A stretch of 48,627 nucleotides of DNA, from NCBI GenBank assembly GCA_040880805.1, contig JBBDHW010000004.1:1-48627 (forward strand), given 5' to 3'. The position numbers and the translations under genes were made by a program. The DNA comes from Acidimicrobiia bacterium. GTDB lineage: Bacteria > Actinomycetota > Acidimicrobiia > IMCC26256 > DASPTH01. The notes under the pieces are model-generated. The model was not told the origin of the DNA, ran no database searches, and saw nothing but the letters and a program-made list of their open reading frames with translations. Shown here one piece after another: positions 6,477-38,751 of the stretch (its first letter is position 1; every line of letters starts with the position of its first letter).

Positions 6477-6569
6477 GCTGTCCCGCTCTCGGCGCTCCGC
6501 GCCGGGCCGCTCAGGCCCCGCTTCGCTGCTCGCCGGGATACCCGGCTCGCGGCCGCTCCGCTCATGCTG
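6472..6569. mobile_element. Short palindromic insertion bounded by 9-bp direct repeats
   Basis: The 9-mer CTCATGCTG occurs at 6472-6480 and again at 6561-6569, bracketing about 80 bp of GC-rich sequence. The inside contains GCCGGGATACCCGGC-type dyad symmetry (6526-6550), and the 25-mer there is identical, in inverted orientation, to 33624-33648. Without the insert the dehydrogenase stop and the VOC start would overlap directly as ATGA. This looks like a MITE- or REP-like insertion with a target-site duplication; a slipped tandem duplication is the alternative. Confidence 0.6.
6473..6565 (-). other. 30-codon bridging ORF inside the 89-bp insertion
   Basis: This short frame begins with an ATG overlapping the alcohol dehydrogenase TGA and ends in a TGA overlapping the ATG of the VOC gene. 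Its sequence is low-complexity (EPGIPASSE followed by Arg/Glu/Pro) and comes wholly from the inserted repeat. It is probably not a functional protein, but it carries ribosomes across the insertion. Confidence 0.5.
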
Positions 6570-28792: not shown

Positions 28793-29779
28793 TCAGCGGA
28801 CCGGAAGCGGGCTCGGTCGAGCGACGCGACGGGCTGCGACCTGCACTGGATCTGGCCACCGCACATTGGTTGCCCAGCCGAGGCGCTCGAAGAGGCGGAT
28901 CAGCACGGCGGAGCTGTCGAGTTGGTGACGCTCGACTCCGTGCCGCGCCGACCTCGGGAACGCGTGGTGCGCGTTGTGCCACGACTCGCCCATCGAGAAG
29001 AGTGCGAGGCCGGCCACGTTCCGGCTCTGGTCGTGTGACCGGAACGGTTGCCTGCCGAAGCGGTGGCACACCGAGTTGATCGCCCACGTGACGTTGTGGC
29101 TGAAACCGATCCGCAGGATGCCGGCCAACAGCAGTGCCCCGACCGCACCGGCGAGCGTCCCGTAGAGGACGTACCCGATCGCGAACGGCAACGCGAGGGT
29201 GGCAACACAGCACGGCACGAACAGCTTGTCGATGAAGACGAGGTCGGGGTCGGCGAGCAGGTCCGGCGCGAACTCCGTGCGCGAGGTCGGCTCGTTGGTG
29301 AAGCACCAGCCGATGTGCGCATGCCAGAGACCGCGCAACCCGCCGACGGCTTGATCGCCCTGCACCCACGGCGAGTGCGGATCACCGGCCCGGTCGGAAT
29401 ACCGGTGATGCCGGCGATGGTCGGCGACCCACCCGATCATCGACCCCTGGAACGACATCGATCCCGCGATCGCCAGCGCGATCTTCAACGGTCGTTTCGC
29501 TACGAAGCTGCGGTGTGTGAACAGACGGTGGAAGCCGACGGTCACCGCATGCCCGATCACGACGACGAAGGCCACGGCCAGCGCGATGTTCCACCAGCGC
29601 ACCGGACCGCCCGTGCCTCGGAAGATGACGAACAGCAACAACACCGGAGGGCCGAACGCGACGACGGCACTCAGGACGCGGCTGTAGAAAGGAGGGGTAT
29701 AGGGAGCGGACGGCGGTGCGTCACCGACCTGATCCGTCGCGTCGGACTCCGACAGAGAGTGCGCGTGAATCGTCTGCAT
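28793..29779 (-). CDS. Membrane fatty acyl-CoA desaturase, copy 1
   Basis: A 328-residue integral-membrane desaturase. The three His boxes are HRLFTH (84-89), HRRHH (121-125) and HNAHH (268-272), at the spacing of stearoyl-CoA delta-9 desaturases. Hydrophobic helices flank the first box and lie near residues 185-225. It would introduce a double bond into a long-chain acyl-CoA using di-iron and a reductase chain. It is 328 residues like the second copy at 31348-32334 and closely similar (SRPLKIALAIAGSMSFQGS versus KRPLKIALAIAGSMSFQGS). It lies at the downstream end of a minus-strand operon and converges on the plus-strand hypothetical gene. Confidence 0.93.
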   Translation of the reverse strand: MQTIHAHSLSESDATDQVGDAPPSAPYTPPFYSRVLSAVVAFGPPVLLLFVIFRGTGGPVRWWNIALAVAFVVVIGHAVTVGFHRLFTHRSFVAKRPLKIALAIAGSMSFQGSMIGWVADHRRHHRYSDRAGDPHSPWVQGDQAVGGLRGLWHAHIGWCFTNEPTSRTEFAPDLLADPDLVFIDKLFVPCCVATLALPFAIGYVLYGTLAGAVGALLLAGILRIGFSHNVTWAINSVCHRFGRQPFRSHDQSRNVAGLALFSMGESWHNAHHAFPRSARHGVERHQLDSSAVLIRLFERLGWATNVRWPDPVQVAARRVARPSPLPVR

Positions 29780-29787
29780 CCGACACG

Positions 29788-30051
29788 CTACCTTCTGCGA
29801 GGCGGCGGATTGAACCGCTTGGTCCCGACGAGTCGGGCGGAACCATCCGGCAGCGCTTCGACGTTGGCCTGGCACTGCCACCCGGGTCGCGGCTGGTCGA
29901 GCAGCGTGGCCGTCAGTTCGCCCGGCGCGAAGCTCGACGCAGGCCGGGCGACTTCGAGCTCGCCCACCCAGCGGCGTGCATCGACGTCGGCGATGGTCAC
30001 GGTCACTTCGACCGCGCCGAGGTGGACCCTGCCGGAGTACGGAGTGCTCAC
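29788..30051 (-). CDS. Small hypothetical protein (87 aa)
   Basis: An 87-residue protein beginning with a GTG that overlaps the stop of the NYN gene (GTGA). The sequence is strand-rich (GRVHLGAVEVTVTIADV, WVGELEVARP, LTATLLDQPRPGWQCQANV) and ends RFNPPPRRR. It resembles a small beta-barrel; no specific family is recognised. It lies 8 nt before desaturase copy 1, so it is part of the same transcript. Confidence 0.65.
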   Translation of the reverse strand: MSTPYSGRVHLGAVEVTVTIADVDARRWVGELEVARPASSFAPGELTATLLDQPRPGWQCQANVEALPDGSARLVGTKRFNPPPRRR

Positions 30052-31115
30052 GGCGCGAGACGCAGGAGGTAGTCGTCGGCCGCCTCGTCGAACTCCATCT
30101 CGATGACGCCGCGCGCTCGCGCCGCCTTGCAGAACTGGAGGAAGCCGCCGTATCCAAAACGCTTCTCGCTGAAGTCGACCTGTTGCTTTCGCATCTCGGT
30201 CTTGAGACCTGAGAGATGCGGAGGCCCCGCTTTCGTCGTGAGCCGCTCGACGGTCGCGCGCAACAGCGCGAACGCGGCGTCCTGATCGCGGGCGTGCGAG
30301 GGGAAGCGCACCTCCGGATCCCCCTGCGCGGACCCCTCGCTCAGCTCCACGACGCCGTTGTCGGCTACATGGCGGAGGAGCTCGCCGAACCCACGGAAGC
30401 CATAGTTCGCCTCGTTGAACGTAGGGTCCTTGCGGAGGATCGTGCGCTTCAGGCTCGACGCGAGCACGGGGCCGTTCGTGCTGCGCTCGAGACCGGCGAG
30501 CGTCTGCGTGACGAGCACGCCGAGGTCGGGATCCTCGGCACCGACGACCGTCGCCTTCTCGACGACAGCATCCTCGACCGGTCGCGCGGGCGGGCGGCGC
30601 GGCGCGCGCGCGGCGCGCGCGCGCGGCCTTGCCGGTTCGACGCCTTCGAGGCGTTCGTAGAACAGGAACTCGTCGCACGCCGGCGGGAGCAAGGCCGACG
30701 TTGATGCTTCGATGCCGATGCCGATGACGCGTCGATTGAGTTCCCGCAGCTTGTGAACGAGCGGCGTGAAATCACTGTCGCCGGTGCCGAGCACGAACGT
30801 GGTGATGTAGTCACGCTCGAAGGACAGCTCGACCGCGTCGACGGCCATCTTGATGTCGGCCGCGTTCTTCCGTGTCGCGCCCATCCGCTGCGGGATCTCG
30901 ATGAGCTCGACCTGATGACGCGTGAGCATGCGTCGGTCGTCGTCGAACGCCGACCAATCGGCATAGGCCCGGCGAACGACGACGCGCCCACGCTCCGCGA
31001 GAGCATCAGCGATCGGTCGGAAGTCGAAGGGCTGACTGCCCAACGCCTCCCGTGCTCCGATCGCCAGGTTCTCGTAATCCAGGAACAGCGCGATGCGTTC
31101 CTCGTCCTGGGTCAC
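30048..31115 (-). CDS. NYN-domain (LabA-like) protein with OST-HTH/LOTUS domains
   Basis: A 355-residue putative RNA-processing or RNA-binding protein. The N-terminal NYN/PIN-like domain has the acidic set LFLDYENLAIG, NAADIKMAVDAVE and LGTGDSDFTPLV, expected to bind metal. After a basic, Arg/Ala/Pro linker, two helical LOTUS-like segments follow (ILRKDPTFNEANYGFRGFGELL and RKQQVDFSEKRFGYGGFLQF), each with the YGF/YGG signature. The GTG start at 31115 gives MTQDEERIALFLDYEN. It begins 10 nt after a 38-residue basic protein and is enclosed by two desaturase genes, an unusual location for a nuclease-type protein. Confidence 0.88.
   Translation of the reverse strand: MTQDEERIALFLDYENLAIGAREALGSQPFDFRPIADALAERGRVVVRRAYADWSAFDDDRRMLTRHQVELIEIPQRMGATRKNAADIKMAVDAVELSFERDYITTFVLGTGDSDFTPLVHKLRELNRRVIGIGIEASTSALLPPACDEFLFYERLEGVEPARPRARAARAPRRPPARPVEDAVVEKATVVGAEDPDLGVLVTQTLAGLERSTNGPVLASSLKRTILRKDPTFNEANYGFRGFGELLRHVADNGVVELSEGSAQGDPEVRFPSHARDQDAAFALLRATVERLTTKAGPPHLSGLKTEMRKQQVDFSEKRFGYGGFLQFCKAARARGVIEMEFDEAADDYLLRLAP
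30602..30625. repeat. Alternating G/C tract in the NYN linker
   Basis: Two runs of strictly alternating G and C (30602-30612 and 30613-30625) encode part of the Arg/Ala linker. Such tracts can form Z-DNA and are slippage-prone. The run length could differ between strains or be miscounted in the assembly, but here the frame is intact. Confidence 0.8.
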
Positions 31116-31125
31116 TTAGGCGACG

Positions 31126-31242
31126 TCAGGACGCACCGAAACCGCGTGCCGACTGGTTCTTCTCGTGCTTCGCGGCGCGCTTCTCTTTCAACGACTTCCC
31201 GGGCTTCTTGGCATTCGGTTTCTTCGGAGACTTGTCTCCCAT
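31126..31242 (-). CDS. Small lysine-rich protein (38 aa)
   Basis: A 38-residue protein that is rich in Lys (MGDKSPKKPNAKKPGKSLKE, then KRAAKHEKNQSARGFGAS). The AAGGAG sequence 9 nt before the ATG is a good ribosome site. It resembles the short basic MGDKSPKKxxxKKxGKSLKEKR proteins found widely in Actinomycetota, which I recognise by pattern. It is probably nucleic-acid associated, and its position 10 nt upstream of a LOTUS/NYN protein is in keeping with that. It is too short for many gene callers. Confidence 0.8.
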   Translation of the reverse strand: MGDKSPKKPNAKKPGKSLKEKRAAKHEKNQSARGFGAS

Positions 31243-31347
31243 AGCGACGACTCCTTCGATATGGACGATGTCGAGTGTACGGGCATCCGATCGTCCGGCA
31301 CGCGATTGCTCAGGGTGCCCGACACAGTCGCGGGCCCGGGTTCCACT

Positions 31348-32334
31348 TCACGAGCGCGGAATGCGGCGAGCGTCGAGCCGCGCGGCATCGGGCCACCGGA
31401 CGTGCTTCGCCCAGCCGAGGCGTTCGAACGCTCGGATCGCCACCGCCGAGCTGTCGAGTTGGTGCCGGTCGACGCCATGGCGAGCCAGGTTCGGGAACGC
31501 GTGATGAGCGTTGTGCCACGACTCCCCCATCGACAGCAACGCGAGGGGCGCCAGGTTCGTGCTGGCGTCCTTCGTCCGGAACGGACGCGACCCGAACATG
31601 TGGCAGAGGGAGTTCGTCGACCACGTGACGTGATGCAGGAGCGCGATGCGAAAGACGCCTGCCCAGAGGAGCGCGCCGAACGCGGCGCCCCAGCTTCCCC
31701 CGATTCCGTAGCCGAGCGCGAAGGGCAACAACAGTGTGGCAACGCAGCACGGGACGAAGAGATGGTCGATGACGACAAGGTCGCGATCCGCGAGCAGATC
31801 CGACGCGTACTTCTCACGGACTGTGCCCTCGCGCTTGAAGAACCAGCCGATGTGAGCTTGGAACAGCCCGCGGGCGCGGCCGAATCTCTGCGACGCCGGG
31901 CGAACCGGCGAGTGCGGATCGCCGTCGCGGTCGGTGAACATGTGGTGTCGACGATGTTCCGCGACCCACCCGATCAGCGATCCCTGGAACGACATCGAAC
32001 CCGCGATCGCCAAAGCGATCTTCAGCGGTCGGGACGCTTCGAAGCTGCGATGCGTGAAGAGACGATGGAACCCGATCGTGACACCGTGTCCGATGATCAG
32101 GTACAGCACAGCCGCGATAGCGATGTTGCGCCACGCGAACCTGGCGCCACCAAGGAAGCCCGCGACCACGAGCGAGAGTGCGACAAGAGGTGCGAGCACC
32201 ATGACGGCCGTGGGGATCCGTTGATGCCACGGCACGCGACCCGACGGTGTCCCAGGCTCGGGCGGCGCGGCCGCACCGGCGACAAGATGAGCGGGGGACT
32301 CTGCGAGCGCTGCGTGCTCGGCTTCGATCTGCAT
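31348..32334 (-). CDS. Membrane fatty acyl-CoA desaturase, copy 2
   Basis: A 328-residue desaturase with HRLFTH, HRRHH and HNAHH boxes, paralogous to copy 1 and the same length when started at the ATG at 32334 (MQIEAEHAAL), which follows a GAGG ribosome site. A GTG at 32361 would add nine residues. Hydrophobic helices lie before the first box and in the middle (LLLPFALGYG, AAFGALLWAGVF). The C-terminal WHNAHHAFPNLARHGVDRHQ is conserved between the copies. It heads the desaturase-small protein-NYN run; a 105-bp leader follows downstream. Confidence 0.93.
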   Translation of the reverse strand: MQIEAEHAALAESPAHLVAGAAAPPEPGTPSGRVPWHQRIPTAVMVLAPLVALSLVVAGFLGGARFAWRNIAIAAVLYLIIGHGVTIGFHRLFTHRSFEASRPLKIALAIAGSMSFQGSLIGWVAEHRRHHMFTDRDGDPHSPVRPASQRFGRARGLFQAHIGWFFKREGTVREKYASDLLADRDLVVIDHLFVPCCVATLLLPFALGYGIGGSWGAAFGALLWAGVFRIALLHHVTWSTNSLCHMFGSRPFRTKDASTNLAPLALLSMGESWHNAHHAFPNLARHGVDRHQLDSSAVAIRAFERLGWAKHVRWPDAARLDARRIPRS

Positions 32335-32449
32335 TGCAACCTCGGGGTCGTCGAGTGGCACACCACCGAGGTCCGGAGCAGTGAGCGGGGGATCTAGCCC
32401 AAACGCGGGAAGAGCCCCGACCGTAGCACCGCGCGAGCCGGCGAACTGA

Positions 32450-33440: not shown

Positions 33441-33655
33441 GCGATTTCAGAGTGGTCGCTGCCGTTCGCGTCGGTCGACGTGTTGAGCATGCGCGGCACG
33501 CCCGGGGAGTCCAAACGCGAGTGGCTGATGCGCTACCTCGGCCGTTTGACGCCGGGCTCCATCTGCTCGTGTCGCACGGCGCGACCGACGACCGGTACCA
33601 CCGCGCGCTCGGAGTGAACGACTGCGAGCCGGGTATCCCGGCGAGCAGTGAGTGA
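33441..33655 (+). pseudogene. Fragment of a ChbG/HpnK-like polysaccharide deacetylase
   Basis: Between the SDR and cytochrome c genes one frame reads LPFASVDVLSMRGTPGES then KREWLMRYLGRLTPG. A shift at about 33551-33557 into another frame continues LHLLVSHGATDDRYHRAL, which together look like the C-terminal PGLHxLVxH segment of ChbG/HpnK or YdjC deacetylases. No start, N-terminus or metal site is present. The end runs into the palindromic repeat at 33611-33667 (CEPGIPASSE). It is the decayed tail of a gene, probably cut when the repeat arrived. Confidence 0.45.
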
Positions 33656-33667
33656 CCCATGGTCAAG
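33611..33667 (+). repeat. 57-bp palindromic repeat, copy A
   Basis: The centre holds the dyad GCCGGGTATCCCGGC. It matches copy B (34648-34704, inverted orientation) at 48 of 57 positions, and its 25 bases at 33624-33648 are identical to the reverse complement of 6526-6550. The end includes the stop codon of the cytochrome c gene (33663-33665). Confidence 0.85.
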
Positions 33668-34142
33668 GCGCAGTCGCGCCGGTGCGCCAGTCGGGGATGC
33701 TCGGCGCGTGCTTCTCGAGTAACCGCAGGTACGTGACGAGCTGGCGGACCTGCTCGTCGGTCATGGTTCCGCCGAAGTCGATGCCCCACGCCGACATCTC
33801 CGTGCCCGAGACCCCACCCGAGGTCAGCGCGTGGATCTGCTCGTCCGAGGTGTTCTCGAGGAACTCCTTGGAGTGAAGGGTGGGCGCGTCGCCGCCGCCG
33901 CTGCCGTTGTCGCCATGGCATTCGGCGCAATTGTTCGCGAACAACTCCTTGCCGAGCTTCGTATAGGTCGCGCGTTGGGAGCTCGCCGCGTCGGCTCGCA
34001 ACGACGGCTCCCGAACCCGGTAGGCCACGAATCCGGCGACGAGCACGAACATGAAGACGAGGCCCATCACCAGATACCGGTTGAGGGTCCGCTCGAGCGC
34101 TTCCGGCTCAAACGGGCCCGGCCGCGGTCGCTCGCGTGGCAC
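33663..34142 (-). CDS. Membrane-anchored single-heme cytochrome c
   Basis: A 159-residue cytochrome. A transmembrane anchor lies near residues 22-42 (RYLVMGLVFMFVLVAGFVAY), then the heme motif C72-A-E-C75-H76 and a later Met region GGVSGTEMSAWG that would supply the distal ligand. The domain would face outside the membrane. The ATG at 34142 follows the Rieske stop by 1 nt, so it is the terminal gene of the cytochrome bc-type operon. It is a single-heme type rather than the two-heme QcrC of classic actinobacterial bcc complexes. Its stop is inside repeat copy A. Confidence 0.9.
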   Translation of the reverse strand: MPRERPRPGPFEPEALERTLNRYLVMGLVFMFVLVAGFVAYRVREPSLRADAASSQRATYTKLGKELFANNCAECHGDNGSGGGDAPTLHSKEFLENTSDEQIHALTSGGVSGTEMSAWGIDFGGTMTDEQVRQLVTYLRLLEKHAPSIPDWRTGATAP

Positions 34143-34143
34143 G

Positions 34144-34638
34144 TCACCCCCCCTTCACGCAGTTCGGGCCCTTGGCGGGCGTGAGGTACTTCTTGGCACC
34201 CTGGTCGGGTCCGGCCTCGAGCGTGCCGGTATCGACGACGACCACGCCGCCCTGCACGTCGGTCGGGTAACGATCCATCCCGCGGGGCGACGGCCCGGTG
34301 ATCCACTCGCCCCCGAGGTCGAAGATCGAACCGTGACAGGGACACTCGAAGCGTCCCGAGCTCTCACAGAAGGGCACCTGGCAGCCGAGATGGGGGCACT
34401 TCTGGGACAGTGCGAACAGATCGCCCTTCGCGCTCGTCACGTAGAGGCGCCCTTCGGGGAAGTAGGTGGCCGTGCCCCGCTCGAAGTCCTTCGCCCGTCC
34501 CAGCTTCAGCTTGCCGCCCCCGGCCGCGCTCGCGAGCGGGCGCAACGCCTCGTAGGTGGTGTAGCCGGCCGCGCCGATCAGGAAGATGCCGCCCACCTTC
34601 CAGAGATCGACGAGGAACTGCCGCCTGCTGCGCGCCAT
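34144..34638 (-). CDS. Rieske [2Fe-2S] protein
   Basis: A 164-residue Rieske protein. The cluster ligands are C81-P-H83-L-G-C86 and C99-P-C101-H102 (QKCPHLGCQVPF and FECPCHGSIF). The N-terminus has twin arginines (ARSRRQFL) and one hydrophobic segment (KVGGIFLIGAAGY), consistent with a Tat-type signal-anchor holding the domain outside the membrane. ATG at 34638 follows an AGGAGG sequence on the minus strand. It is small compared with the 350-400 residue actinobacterial QcrA, so this is a different bc-type complex. It works with the cytochrome b and cytochrome c genes on either side. Confidence 0.93.
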   Translation of the reverse strand: MARSRRQFLVDLWKVGGIFLIGAAGYTTYEALRPLASAAGGGKLKLGRAKDFERGTATYFPEGRLYVTSAKGDLFALSQKCPHLGCQVPFCESSGRFECPCHGSIFDLGGEWITGPSPRGMDRYPTDVQGGVVVVDTGTLEAGPDQGAKKYLTPAKGPNCVKGG

Positions 34639-34645
34639 GTCGGGC

Positions 34646-34731
34646 CTCCTGACTATGGGTCGCTCTCTGCGAGCCGGGATACCCGGCTCGCAACCGTTCG
34701 CTCCTGACTATGGGTCGCTCTCTGCGAGCCG
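34646..34731. repeat. Repeat copy B with 31-bp direct duplication
   Basis: Copy B of the palindromic repeat lies at 34648-34704 in the cytochrome b-Rieske spacer, inverted relative to copy A. Its 31 bases at 34646-34676 are repeated exactly at 34701-34731, with 24 bp between the two copies. The whole 100-bp spacer between cytochrome b stop and Rieske start is made of this repeat. Confidence 0.85.
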
Positions 34732-34738
34732 CTTCTAC

Positions 34739-36076
34739 CTAGAACTCGACGTACCAGTGGGTCCACGGGGCGACGAAACGCCAGCCCGGACCTCGGAAGA
34801 ACGTGCCGACCACCGTGAGCACTACCGCGGTCGCCAGCAGCCCGGTGAAGAGGAGCACCGCCACCTTGCGGTTGCGGGCCTCCGTCGCGGGGTTGTGGTC
34901 GATGTACGGGAGCAGCACGAGCACCAGCACGATGCCCAGGGGAACGAGGACGCCGGCGACCAGCGGGTCGAAGCGCGAGAGCAACTCCTGCAGCGCCGAG
35001 AAGTACCACGGCGCCTTCGAGGGCTCGGGGGTCACGTTCGGGTTTGCGAGCCCCCGGAGTGGCGCCACGAAGGCCACGCCCATCGCGAGCGCGACGGCCG
35101 CCACCCCGAGCGCGACGACCACGTGCCGCGCGACCAGGTGAGGCCAGCTGAAGACCGTGTCGTCGACCGGACGATCTTCGGCCGTCACGGACTCGCGGTC
35201 GACCACACCGAGCAGCCGCGTCCGCCCTTCGTACAGCGCGGCGGGCGCGCCCAGGGCAGGCACGCCCACAGCAGGCCGGGCGGTTGCTTCCTCCTCGAAC
35301 GCACCTGCACTCGAACGCGTCACCGCGAACCCGTCTTTGCGGACCCGCCAGATGTGGACCGCGAGCACGAGGATGAGCAACCCGGGCAGCACCGCGACGT
35401 GGAGCGCGTAGAAGCGCAGCAGCGTGCTCGCCCCGATCTGGTCGCCACCGATGAGCAGGTCCTGCAGCGTTCCGCCCAGCACGGGCACGTAATGAACCAG
35501 GTTCGTGCCCACAGTCACGGCCCAGTAGCTCAGTTGGTCCCAGGGCAAGAGGTATCCGGTGAAGGACAGACCGAGGGTGAGCAGCAACAGCATCACGCCG
35601 ATCACCCAGTTGAACTGGCGCGGGCGCTTGTACGCGCCGGCGTAGAAGACGCGCACGAGATGCAGCACGATGACCAGCACCATGAGATGCGCCGACCAGC
35701 GATGCACGTTACGGATGAGCTGGCCGAAGCCGACTCCGGTCTTCAGGTGCTGCATGTCGCCGTACGCGGCCGTCGGCGACGGCGTGTAGAAGAACATCAG
35801 GTACACGCCCGTGGCGACCAGGATCCCGAACAGCACCGCGGCGATGAACCCGAGCCGGAACGAGTAGCGCAGCCGCAACACCCGGGCCGGAATCTTGACC
35901 GGGTACACGTGGAGGAAGAAGTTGCTGAACGACTGGAGCGCGCGTCCGCGCGGGGTGTCGAGCTGCGGGTGACGGAACATCGACCGCCACAGCTCACTGC
36001 GCTGCATCCTCCCCATCAGGCCGTGCGCGGGCGTGGCAACCTCGGGCTCGAGCGCGTCGCGCGTCGGCTCAGGCAC
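34739..36076 (-). CDS. Cytochrome b (b6/subunit IV fused type)
   Basis: A 445-residue quinol-binding cytochrome b. The heme histidines are in helix B ([16 protein letters not shown], spacing 14) and helix D ([18 protein letters not shown], spacing 15, the b6-type distance). [15 protein letters not shown] and [11 protein letters not shown], a PEWY-type quinol-site motif, are present. The C-terminal third corresponds to subunit IV. The sequence is shorter than actinobacterial QcrB (about 540). It has seven to eight membrane helices. The start at 36076 overlaps the flavoprotein stop by 8 nt. It would take electrons from menaquinol and feed the Rieske/cytochrome c branch. Confidence 0.93.
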
Positions 36077-37883
36077 GCACGACCTCCCTCGCGTAGACCA
36101 TCGACAACGCGCCGGGCGGACAGCGGTTCACGCACAGCGCACAACGGATGCAGCGGTCTTCTTCGAGCAGCAAGGCAGACTGCATCTCGGCGCCGGCACC
36201 GACGCGGTCGGCTCGCACGATCGTGATGCAGTCGGTGGGGCAGATGTCGACGCAGAGGCCACACAGGATGCAGAGCGCGGGGTCGAGCATGATGTTGTCG
36301 AAGCAGCGCAGGCAACGCAGCGACTCGAGCGTGGCGTCGGTTTCGTCGAAGCCCACCTCGACCTCGGCGAAGCCGATGCGACGATCGGTGGGCGTCGTGG
36401 GCACGTCGACGCGAGGAATGGCGTCGTAGCCGCTGTCGAGACGGCGAAAGCCCGGACGGATGCTGATCTCGATCGCGAGCGCGAGCGGCGACGCGGGACG
36501 CGCGTCGCCGAGCGCAGCGTGGATCGCGGCCGCCGCGCGCTTCCCGTCGGCGATCGCGTCGATGAGGTTGCGCGGCCCCTTGGCAACGTCGCCGCCGGCC
36601 CAGATCTTGGGATGCGACGTTTGGAGCGTGATCGGGTCCACGCGCACGGTGCCCTGCGGGGTCTGCTCGAGGGCGACCTCTCCGAGCAGGCTCAGGTCGG
36701 CGGCCTGGCCGACGGCGAGGATGACCGAGTCGGCGGGCAGGACCTCCTCGGTGCCGGGGAGGAACGTCGGCGCGAAGCGGCCTTCGCGATCGAAGACGGA
36801 CTCGACGACGATCGTCTCGAGCCCCCGTACCCGATCGCCGCCCACGAAGCGATGCGGCCCTCGCCGGTACAGGATCGTGATGCCCTCGCGCTCCGCTTCG
36901 GCGATCTCTTCGGGATCGGCCGGCATCTCCTCGGGCGATTCGAGCGCGATCACCGTTACCTCGAGCACACCGGCGCGTCGCGCGGCACGCGCCACGTCGA
37001 GGGTGGTCGTCATTGCCCGGCGTGCGTCCTCGAGCGAGGGACCGGGCACGGACGCCGGCTCTGACGCGGAGCCGTCGGCAGCGGCGCGGAGCGCCGTGCG
37101 CGCGGCGTCGAACGCGACATTGCCGCCACCTACCACGACGACACGCTCGCCGAGATCGACCCGGAAGCCCTGGTTCACGTTGAGCAGGTACTCGATCGCA
37201 CGGAGCACGCCGTCGAGGTCGTGTCCGGGCAGATCGAGGCTGCGAGCGCGGCCGGTGCCCACCGCGAGGAAGAGCGCGCCGTGCCGGTCGAGGAGCTCGG
37301 TCAGGCTCGCGTCGGTGCCCACGCGAAAGCCGGGGCGGGTGTCGACGCCGAGTTCGAGGATCGCGCCGATCTCACGGGCGATCACGCCTCGGGGCAGTCG
37401 GTACTCGGGTATCCCGAGCACCATCATCCCGCCGAGCCGCTCGTTGGCCTCGTACACGGTGACCGGATGACCGGCGAGGCGAAGATCGTGCGCGGCCGCC
37501 AGACCGGCGGGGCCGCCGCCGATCACGCCGACCGACGGTCCGGTCGCGGGCGGCACCGGGCCGTGTGCCTCGTGCCAAACGGCGTTGGCGGCGAAGCTCT
37601 CGACCCCGAAGCGCTCGGTCACGAACCGCTTGAGCGCACGGATGGAGATCGGCGCGTCGACCGTGCCACGCCGGCACGCGGTCTCGCAGGGCGCCGCGCA
37701 GACGCGACCACAGATCGACGCGAACGGATTCGGAGCCCGCGCGATCAGGTAGGCATCCCGGTAACGGCCCTCCGCGATCGCGGTGACGTAACCACCCGCG
37801 TCGGTGCGGACCGGGCACGCCGCGCGACAGGGTTCGTTCTCCCACAACCACTGCGCGTCAGGCACGCGCGGTTCGCCGGGCAT
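36069..37883 (-). CDS. GltD-like FAD/iron-sulfur flavoprotein with C-terminal 2[4Fe-4S] ferredoxin domain
   Basis: A 604-residue protein combining two modules. The N-terminal part follows glutamate synthase small subunit/NfnB: cluster-binding C19, C23 and C58, C62, C66, C70 ([20 protein letters not shown]), FAD loop [12 protein letters not shown], and NADPH loop [16 protein letters not shown]. The C-terminal part, after about residue 510, has two 4Fe-4S sites: [12 protein letters not shown] and [12 protein letters not shown]. Such proteins shuttle electrons between NAD(P)H and ferredoxin-type carriers. The ATG at 37883 overlaps the small membrane protein stop, and the stop overlaps the cytochrome b start. 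This indicates one complex or a shared pathway. Confidence 0.9.
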
Positions 37884-38119
37884 CAGATCACGCGCCGTGC
37901 CTGCAGTCGCCGCAACACCCACGCGAACGCGACGAACACAACGACGAACGACGTTGTGACGACGGCGACACGCCCGTTTCGCGACAGTCCCGTCAGATGC
38001 GTGAGCAGCCAATTGGGCACGAACACCAAGAGCACCGCCCCGGCGACGAGGATGACCGCGGCAGATACGAGCGCTCGTCCCCAGCCGATCGTTGTCGCGC
38101 TGCTCGAACGCGCGGCCAT
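37883..38119 (-). CDS. Small two-helix membrane protein (78 aa)
   Basis: A 78-residue protein with two hydrophobic segments. These are at about residues 16-33 (LVSAAVILVAGAVLLVFV) and 54-68 (VVTTSFVVVFVAFAW), separated by a polar loop and ending in a basic tail (RRLQARRVI). It resembles a membrane subunit or anchor. The ATG at 38119 shares a base with the cupredoxin stop, and its stop overlaps the flavoprotein ATG, so all three are translationally linked. No family is recognised. It may be the membrane anchor of the flavoprotein. Confidence 0.75.
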   Translation of the reverse strand: MAARSSSATTIGWGRALVSAAVILVAGAVLLVFVPNWLLTHLTGLSRNGRVAVVTTSFVVVFVAFAWVLRRLQARRVI

Positions 38120-38601
38120 CAGGTAACCGTAAACGCTGCGCGCATCCCCATGTCGTAATGCTTGGCGATGTTGCAGCCGACTACGTACTTGCCCTTCTTG
38201 AGCGTGAGCGTCTTGGACTTCGTCTTGCCTTTGGGGACGTCCTCGACCTCGCCGACGCTCTTCGCCTCGCTGACCTTGTGGGTCTTGGAGTTCACCGGCA
38301 GCTTGTCGTACGCGGTGTTGGTCTTCAGCACCACCATCTCGTGAATGATCGTGCCGTTGTTCGTCACCGTGAACTTCACCTTGCCCGCCGGCGCGGACGT
38401 GGGGGTCACCGTCATCGTCATCGGGCCTTTGACGCCCGCGGTGTCGCCGACCTCCACTTTTACCGTCGTGACGGCCGTCGAGGCCGAAGCCACGCGGTAC
38501 GGCCGCGCGAAAGCACTCGCCGGAGCGACGAGCAACAGTGCGACGATCGTGATCAGCGCGATTCCAACTCCGCGCGTCGCCACCCTTCGGATTCGAGTCA
38601 C
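38119..38601 (-). CDS. Exported cupredoxin (type 1 copper) protein
   Basis: A 160-residue exported copper protein. The N-terminus has a basic start and a hydrophobic signal segment (GVGIALITIVALLLVAPASA). The mature part is a cupredoxin fold with H87 in TIIHEMVV and C143-x4-H148-x4-M153 in GCNIAKHYDMGM, the plastocyanin-type copper site. The GTG at 38601 is preferred because GAGAGG is 8 nt upstream; a GTG at 38610 is possible. Located upstream of the flavoprotein and cytochrome b/Rieske genes, it could accept electrons outside the membrane in place of, or before, cytochrome c. Confidence 0.88.
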   Translation of the reverse strand: MTRIRRVATRGVGIALITIVALLLVAPASAFARPYRVASASTAVTTVKVEVGDTAGVKGPMTMTVTPTSAPAGKVKFTVTNNGTIIHEMVVLKTNTAYDKLPVNSKTHKVSEAKSVGEVEDVPKGKTKSKTLTLKKGKYVVGCNIAKHYDMGMRAAFTVT

Positions 38602-38751
38602 GCAGTCCACCTCTCAAACTCGAGCCGCGATCCAAGAAGCGCCGCGACCGCATGGGCTGCCGCAAAGCAGCACCTACCGCATGGTGCACGAGGCCCGCGG
38701 CTCGCTGTAGGGCCTTTGGACCCGATTGGTCGGCCCGTTGGGTGGTGCCGC

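Follow-up and report, generated by a model that had tools for sequence, protein, structure and literature searches.

A GltD-type flavoprotein linked to a b6-type Rieske/cytochrome b operon in Acidimicrobiia and distant phyla, and a possible route from quinol to NADH

The first 48,627 nucleotides of contig JBBDHW010000004.1 from an Acidimicrobiia bacterium (assembly GCA_040880805.1; this whole stretch is referred to as the window) carry six closely packed genes on the minus strand at 33663-38610, encoding a cupredoxin, a two-helix protein, a GltD-type flavoprotein, a cytochrome b, a Rieske protein, and a cytochrome c, in the order given by an earlier prediction made from the sequence (the original prediction). 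The flavoprotein is, with high confidence, a functional part of the cytochrome b complex. In the favored reading of the operon, to which a probability of about one half is assigned, it encodes an accessory Rieske/cytochrome b complex that carries its own module for nicotinamide adenine dinucleotide, NAD(H), on the cytoplasmic side, in which quinol bifurcation driven by oxygen would yield NADH.

Linkage of the flavoprotein to the cytochrome b genes

The class was surveyed in 296 genomes with a flavoprotein search and a cytochrome b profile. In total, 46 flavoprotein matches were obtained, of which 44 were kept and two were left out as another family (G006, 39% identity; G283, a partial match at 48%). 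The cytochrome b profile scores were bimodal, with 42 genomes at 390-432 bits and all others at ≤331 bits, and the flavoprotein was present in all 42 genomes with the window-type cytochrome b (Fisher p = 5e-49 for co-occurrence, uncorrected for relatedness). Relatives that keep the cytochrome genes and lack the flavoprotein, named in the original prediction as evidence that would count against it, were not found among the 296 genomes for the window-type cytochrome b. Two genomes, G050 and G117, had the flavoprotein without a full-length match to the window-type cytochrome b; their contigs end at the operon. The fetched loci of the class all followed the order flavoprotein, cytochrome b, Rieske, and cytochrome c, with gaps only at contig ends.

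The search for the same linkage in other genomes, which had been proposed along with the prediction, recovered it from distant phyla with varying gene order. The gene order of the window was shared by 9/9 loci from other classes of the phylum. The flavoprotein was found in 32 of 149 Acidobacteriota genomes, with the Rieske and cytochrome b genes beside it in almost all of the loci fetched; the usual order there is flavoprotein, Rieske, cytochrome b. The linkage also occurred in one genome each of Methylomirabilis (Methylomirabilota), Latescibacterota, and Myxococcota (this one deposited as Deltaproteobacteria). Among the Planctomycetota that carry out anaerobic ammonium oxidation (anammox), all 20 loci with the flavoprotein contained Rieske and cytochrome b genes, in the order Rieske, cytochrome b6, flavoprotein, subunit IV. 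The linkage, with reshuffled gene order, is thus conserved across six phyla. Pairwise distances of the flavoprotein and the cytochrome b were correlated over 92 loci (r = 0.87; permutation maximum, 0.10), which, together with the order-shuffled linkage, bears out the proposal that the two belong together; a chance neighborhood is ruled out by the co-occurrence within the class and the linkage across phyla. In the flavoprotein trees, proteins with an LE-type nucleotide loop, described below, formed one clade (99/100) separate from the anammox proteins; once long branches were removed, all linked proteins lay on the same side of a branch with weak support. GltD-like proteins of 35-39% identity at two loci (L062 and L078) were treated as belonging to another family that lacks the linkage.

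These results also bear on the alternative of a free-standing soluble flavoenzyme that is co-expressed with the cytochromes and acts outside the complex. GltD-like proteins are common, and interaction of the flavoprotein with the complex is a prediction for the clade of the window; however, the linkage is kept across phyla despite altered gene order, the co-occurrence is one-to-one, evolution of the two proteins is correlated, and the subunits of the anammox complex Kuste4569-4574 were reported to comigrate (PMC12954380). A separate enzyme is accordingly very improbable.

Cofactor sites of the complex

The flavoprotein gene (36069..37883, minus strand) most likely starts at the ATG at 37883, which overlaps the stop codon of the gene for the two-helix protein and gives 604 amino acids; a 647-amino-acid frame uses an upstream TTG. 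Profiles, motifs, and fold define a GltD/Nfn-type core for iron-sulfur clusters, flavin adenine dinucleotide (FAD), and NAD, followed by a C-terminal CxxC motif and a 2[4Fe-4S] ferredoxin domain. The Pfam and NCBIfam matches were to a dihydropyrimidine-dehydrogenase/GltD-type Fe-S domain, a pyridine nucleotide-disulphide oxidoreductase core, and a C-terminal 4Fe-4S dicluster; the best subfamily, PRK12771, scored under its cut-off. An AlphaFold2 model built with 46 homologues reached a mean predicted local distance difference test (pLDDT) score of 87.7, replacing an earlier run with 13 sequences (pLDDT 59.5), and its closest solved folds were subunits of NfnABC, StnABC, and NfnI. FAD and NAD loops and two C-terminal 4Fe-4S motifs were identified, along with six N-terminal cysteines at 19, 23, 58, 62, 66, and 70, which would pair with a CLRC motif before the ferredoxin domain to provide eight ligands; eight more cysteines lie in the ferredoxin domain, and the 16 together are enough for a predicted four 4Fe-4S clusters. 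Among the linked proteins from outside anammox, 15 of the 16 never vary, and the sixteenth, Cys58, is missing from only two. The FAD and dinucleotide core was likewise retained throughout the linked homologues.

The nucleotide loop separates the two groups of linked flavoproteins. All 73 from outside anammox have LE (LES in the window), preceded by an insertion, in the place of YRR, the motif present in 20/20 anammox proteins and in NADP-binding relatives. With the loss of the arginines that would be expected to bind the 2'-phosphate, the window-type flavoprotein more likely uses NAD(H) than NADP, which weakens the original suggestion of NADPH as its substrate.

The cytochrome b (34739..36076, minus strand) has 445 amino acids and, according to profiles, structure-database matches, and hydropathy, is a fusion of b6 and subunit IV with seven predicted helices. 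The hemes are assigned to His125/His139 and His226/His241, the second pair having the b6-type spacing of 15. Among solved structures, cytochrome b6 was the best match (9e-49, gapless alignment), ahead of actinobacterial QcrB (~1e-26), and the profile matches were of the ExtP/cytochrome b6 kind, with ExtP and ExtQ as the best NCBIfam matches at scores under the curated cut-offs. Arg74 occupies the position of b6 Cys35, the residue that carries heme cN. Cysteine was found at this position in none of the 72 non-anammox linked sequences (47 from the same phylum and 25 from other phyla), where R, Y, F, W, A, or G stands instead, but in 20/20 anammox sequences and 51 of 53 flavoprotein-free relatives. 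Two cytochrome b genes at L106 and L154 lack both the cysteine and an adjacent flavoprotein; both are from Acidobacteriota genomes with a flavoprotein elsewhere. His56, which corresponds to the proposed interface heme ligand His62 of Kustd1481, is conserved, as are Arg246 and Lys247, which likewise correspond to residues of the proposed electron path. His56 was rejected as a signature of the flavoprotein, and the Qo motif KAPWYF as anything peculiar to these proteins, both being family-wide.

The Rieske [2Fe-2S] protein (34144..34638, minus strand; 164 amino acids; CPHLGC...CPCHGS), recognized from profiles and motifs, has an N-terminus resembling a twin-arginine translocation signal (SRRQFL, by eye). 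Its best solved match was 9rk3, which is taken to be Kustd1480 of Kuenenia on the basis of the GSxF pattern. The cytochrome c (33663..34142, minus strand; 159 amino acids) is membrane-anchored and single-heme according to profiles and its one CxxCH motif (CAECH at 72); together with the cupredoxin, it makes up the acceptor side of the operon. The particulars of these proteins in the original prediction were thus confirmed, namely the six N-terminal cysteines, the two 4Fe-4S motifs, the histidine spacing of 15, the small Rieske protein, and the single heme.

A possible quinol-to-NADH route and its alternatives

In the favored reading, quinol would be oxidized at the Qo site; one electron would then run downhill by way of the Rieske protein, cytochrome c, and the cupredoxin into a heme-copper oxidase, and the other would be carried uphill by hemes bL and bH, the 2[4Fe-4S] domain, the N-terminal clusters, and FAD as far as NAD+, for a net formation of NADH from quinol-level electrons. 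We infer the physical complex, the electron path, the preference for NAD over NADP, and the direction of flow, for which quinol to NAD+ is the most likely assignment at about even odds. With menaquinone near -70 mV and NAD near -320 mV (PMC12954380), such a bifurcation is thermodynamically possible with oxygen as the final acceptor. The missing heme cN cysteine fits electrons that may be diverted from quinone reduction on the cytoplasmic side. Also in favor are the flavoprotein, homologous over its full length to the anammox subunit to which this mechanism has been ascribed, and the Rieske protein, which is nearest to Kustd1480 (PMC12954380).

Genomic context places the complex beside oxygen respiration. 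The genome of the window has one COX1 gene, two NuoF-type genes, and only two Cytochrome_B genes, that of the window and a split b6 belonging to a second complex III. A second Cytochrome_B match was found in 26 of the 27 carriers examined, the exception being G168, which has only this one, and 11 of 15 non-carriers have one; a role as the housekeeping complex III was rejected on these grounds. In six relatives, COX1 and COX2 divergently adjoin the operon. Given the second cytochrome b of the carriers and these neighbors, the complex is regarded as accessory and as standing next to oxygen respiration.

Several observations weigh against the proposed bifurcation. Loss of heme cN is no proof of diversion, as bc1-type complexes carry out N-side quinone reduction without this heme. 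On the cytochrome b tree, types without and with the cN cysteine fell essentially on opposite sides of one branch; the difference is a single deep split rather than a repeated one, the residue would thus have changed in one or a few events, and its correlation with the flavoprotein cannot count as independent support for a function. A scenario in which heme cN was lost several times over as the flavoprotein was gained was also considered and is unsupported by this tree. His56, Arg246, and Lys247 were invariant in all groups, with the flavoprotein or without. The LE loop speaks against NADP without proving NAD, and the NuoF-type genes of the same genome put the need for a further source of NADH in doubt.

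In the main rival explanation, electrons would flow in reverse, from NADH through FAD and the Fe-S clusters to heme bH and on to quinone (or cytochrome c), making the assembly a bc-attached NADH:quinone/cytochrome c oxidoreductase. This direction would employ the same anatomy, an LE-type loop suits NADH, and the genome has a heme-copper oxidase; however, it would waste the NADH-quinone energy drop that complex I conserves, a point raised for anammox as well (PMC12954380); NuoF genes of the complex I type are present in the genome, and the quinone-side heme cN has been lost, not kept. Reverse flow is therefore rather unlikely. A flavin-based bifurcation, in which NADH electrons would split at FAD, one going to the cytochrome b or quinone and the other to ferredoxin, is suggested by the closest folds, which are subunits of the bifurcating NfnABC/StnABC and of NfnI, but is improbable given one apparent flavin and one apparent Fe-S chain, and given that the second Nfn subunit is missing from the operon.

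Finally, the C-terminal 2[4Fe-4S] domain might mainly connect the cytochrome b with soluble ferredoxin or another dehydrogenase, with NAD(H) being secondary. A stand-alone 137-amino-acid 2[4Fe-4S] gene stands directly before the cytochrome b gene of the second complex III of the class in 10/10 fetched loci, a point in favor of this reading, but the FAD and dinucleotide core has been retained throughout the linked flavoproteins, and ferredoxin exchange is considered the least probable of the alternatives. A comparable stand-alone ferredoxin gene was sought near flavoprotein-free bc operons of other phyla and was not found. The second complex III (L041:8343-12728, C46 of the same genome; L249-L258) is apparently the housekeeping one, with genes ordered as the ferredoxin-like protein, cytochrome b6, subunit IV, Rieske, and diheme cytochrome c. 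At L053:10801-12963, a 720-amino-acid fusion of cytochrome b, 2[4Fe-4S], FlpD/MvhD, and cytochrome c domains lies beside COX1/COX2 and divergent from the flavoprotein operon, and similar fusions were present in L051, L054, L061, L072, and L073.

Relation to known complexes and other features of the operon

Two complexes in which an NAD(P) oxidoreductase accompanies a Rieske protein and a cytochrome b have been described from Kuenenia, Kustd1480-1485 and Kuste4569-4574, with Rieske potentials of +335 and +303 mV in anammox and an extra heme predicted at a cytochrome b histidine (PMC12954380). Kartal et al. are credited with the proposal that quinol bifurcation in the anammox complexes produces NAD(P)H, which is still unproven (PMC12954380). 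The first of them, R/b-2 (Kustd1480-1485), shares with the window operon a linked Rieske protein, b6-type cytochrome b, subunit IV, and GltD-type flavoprotein with a C-terminal 2[4Fe-4S] domain, the flavoproteins being full-length homologues (35-37% identity over residues 9-595); the histidine, arginine/lysine, and Qo positions and the GSxF second sphere of the Rieske protein are also the same. The window version differs in the fusion of b6 and IV within its sub-clade, the absence of the heme cN cysteine, LE in the place of the YRR loop with an insertion before it, a one-heme cytochrome c and cupredoxin rather than multiheme cytochromes, its gene order, and the oxygen reductase of its hosts. 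The second, R/b-3 (Kuste4569-4574), likewise has a Rieske protein, a b6-type cytochrome b, and an NAD(P) oxidoreductase; however, its octaheme partner, with proposed nitrite reduction, is missing from the window operon. Kuenenia hertensis (L217) contains a second flavoprotein-linked Rieske/cytochrome b operon, likely of the Kuste4569-4574 type, whose flavoprotein is 44% identical to the Kustd type. Because the heme cN cysteine and the multiheme partner of the anammox complexes are missing, the window complex is filed as their sister form and not as a member.

Other known systems are more distant. The Geobacter Ext cytochromes ExtP/ExtQ and the bc cluster GSU2930-2937 have a b6-type cytochrome, but with multiheme partners and no report of a window-type flavoprotein (PMC2825233). 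Actinobacterial QcrCAB also combines Rieske, cytochrome b, and cytochrome c subunits, but includes a diheme QcrC and a large QcrA; the window set has a cytochrome b far closer to b6, a small Rieske protein, and one CxxCH, so the difference from QcrCAB originally predicted holds. The operon lacks the heme cN cysteine and the cytochrome f of the b6f complex. NfnABC, StnABC, NfnI, and GltD share the fold and the Fe-S/FAD/NAD core of the flavoprotein, which, unlike Nfn and GltD, lacks an NADP-type loop and is tied to a membrane complex; no gene for the second flavin subunit of the Nfn/Stn transhydrogenases is present in the operon, and the flavoprotein further departs from GltD in having LE for YRR and no adjacent GltB gene.

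The claim of an undescribed system has to be narrowed, as a homologous arrangement of NAD(P) oxidoreductase and Rieske/cytochrome b is already published for anammox (PMC12954380), but the NAD-type version without heme cN outside anammox appears undescribed; no description of such a complex outside anammox was found in the literature searched, with subscription journals mostly outside its coverage. Transfer of bifurcated electrons to NAD(P)+ by a bc-type complex is a proposal that rests on anammox bacteria, organisms that do not lend themselves readily to cultivation or manipulation. A distinct, simpler, and far wider-spread version in aerobic-type bacteria of several phyla makes the question testable outside anammox and supplies natural controls in its lack of heme cN and its altered nucleotide loop. 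If the proposal is true, these bacteria would have a further way of making NADH from quinol, powered by a high-potential oxidant instead of complex I run backwards, and this unproven route may be common, given its spread over several phyla. It is tentatively suggested, at somewhat less than even odds, that the linked operons represent a widespread, unrecognized class of aerobic complexes for oxygen-driven quinol bifurcation to NADH, in which the lack of heme cN would send bH electrons to the flavoprotein without closure of a Q-cycle.

The remaining genes of the operon lie upstream of the flavoprotein gene. The cupredoxin (38119..38610, minus strand) is sulfocyanin/plastocyanin-like with an N-terminal hydrophobic segment (matches to Pfam SoxE and Copper-bind that are weak yet exceed the cut-off), occurs at the same place in loci of the sub-clade of the window, and is a probable electron carrier outside the membrane. 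The 78-amino-acid protein (37886..38119, minus strand) has two transmembrane helices predicted from hydropathy, and homologues with 36-51% identity stand between the cupredoxin and flavoprotein genes in related loci.

The 100-bp repeat spacer originally noted between the cytochrome b and Rieske genes (34639..34738, minus strand) exists, as a palindrome flanked by two 24-bp direct repeat copies, but a repeat search identified it as an interspersed element with nothing specific to the operon. The palindrome, GCGAGCCGGGTATCCCGGCTCGC, occurs in the window at 34651-34729, 33624-33646, and 6528-6550 and in dozens of copies in the genome; within three mismatches it has 71 places on one strand genome-wide, versus none for the reversed control, and a role of the spacer as regulator of the operon was rejected. 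Elsewhere in the window, at 28793-32361, a gene resembling that of an NYN-domain protein (by eye) lies between two fatty-acid desaturase-like genes.

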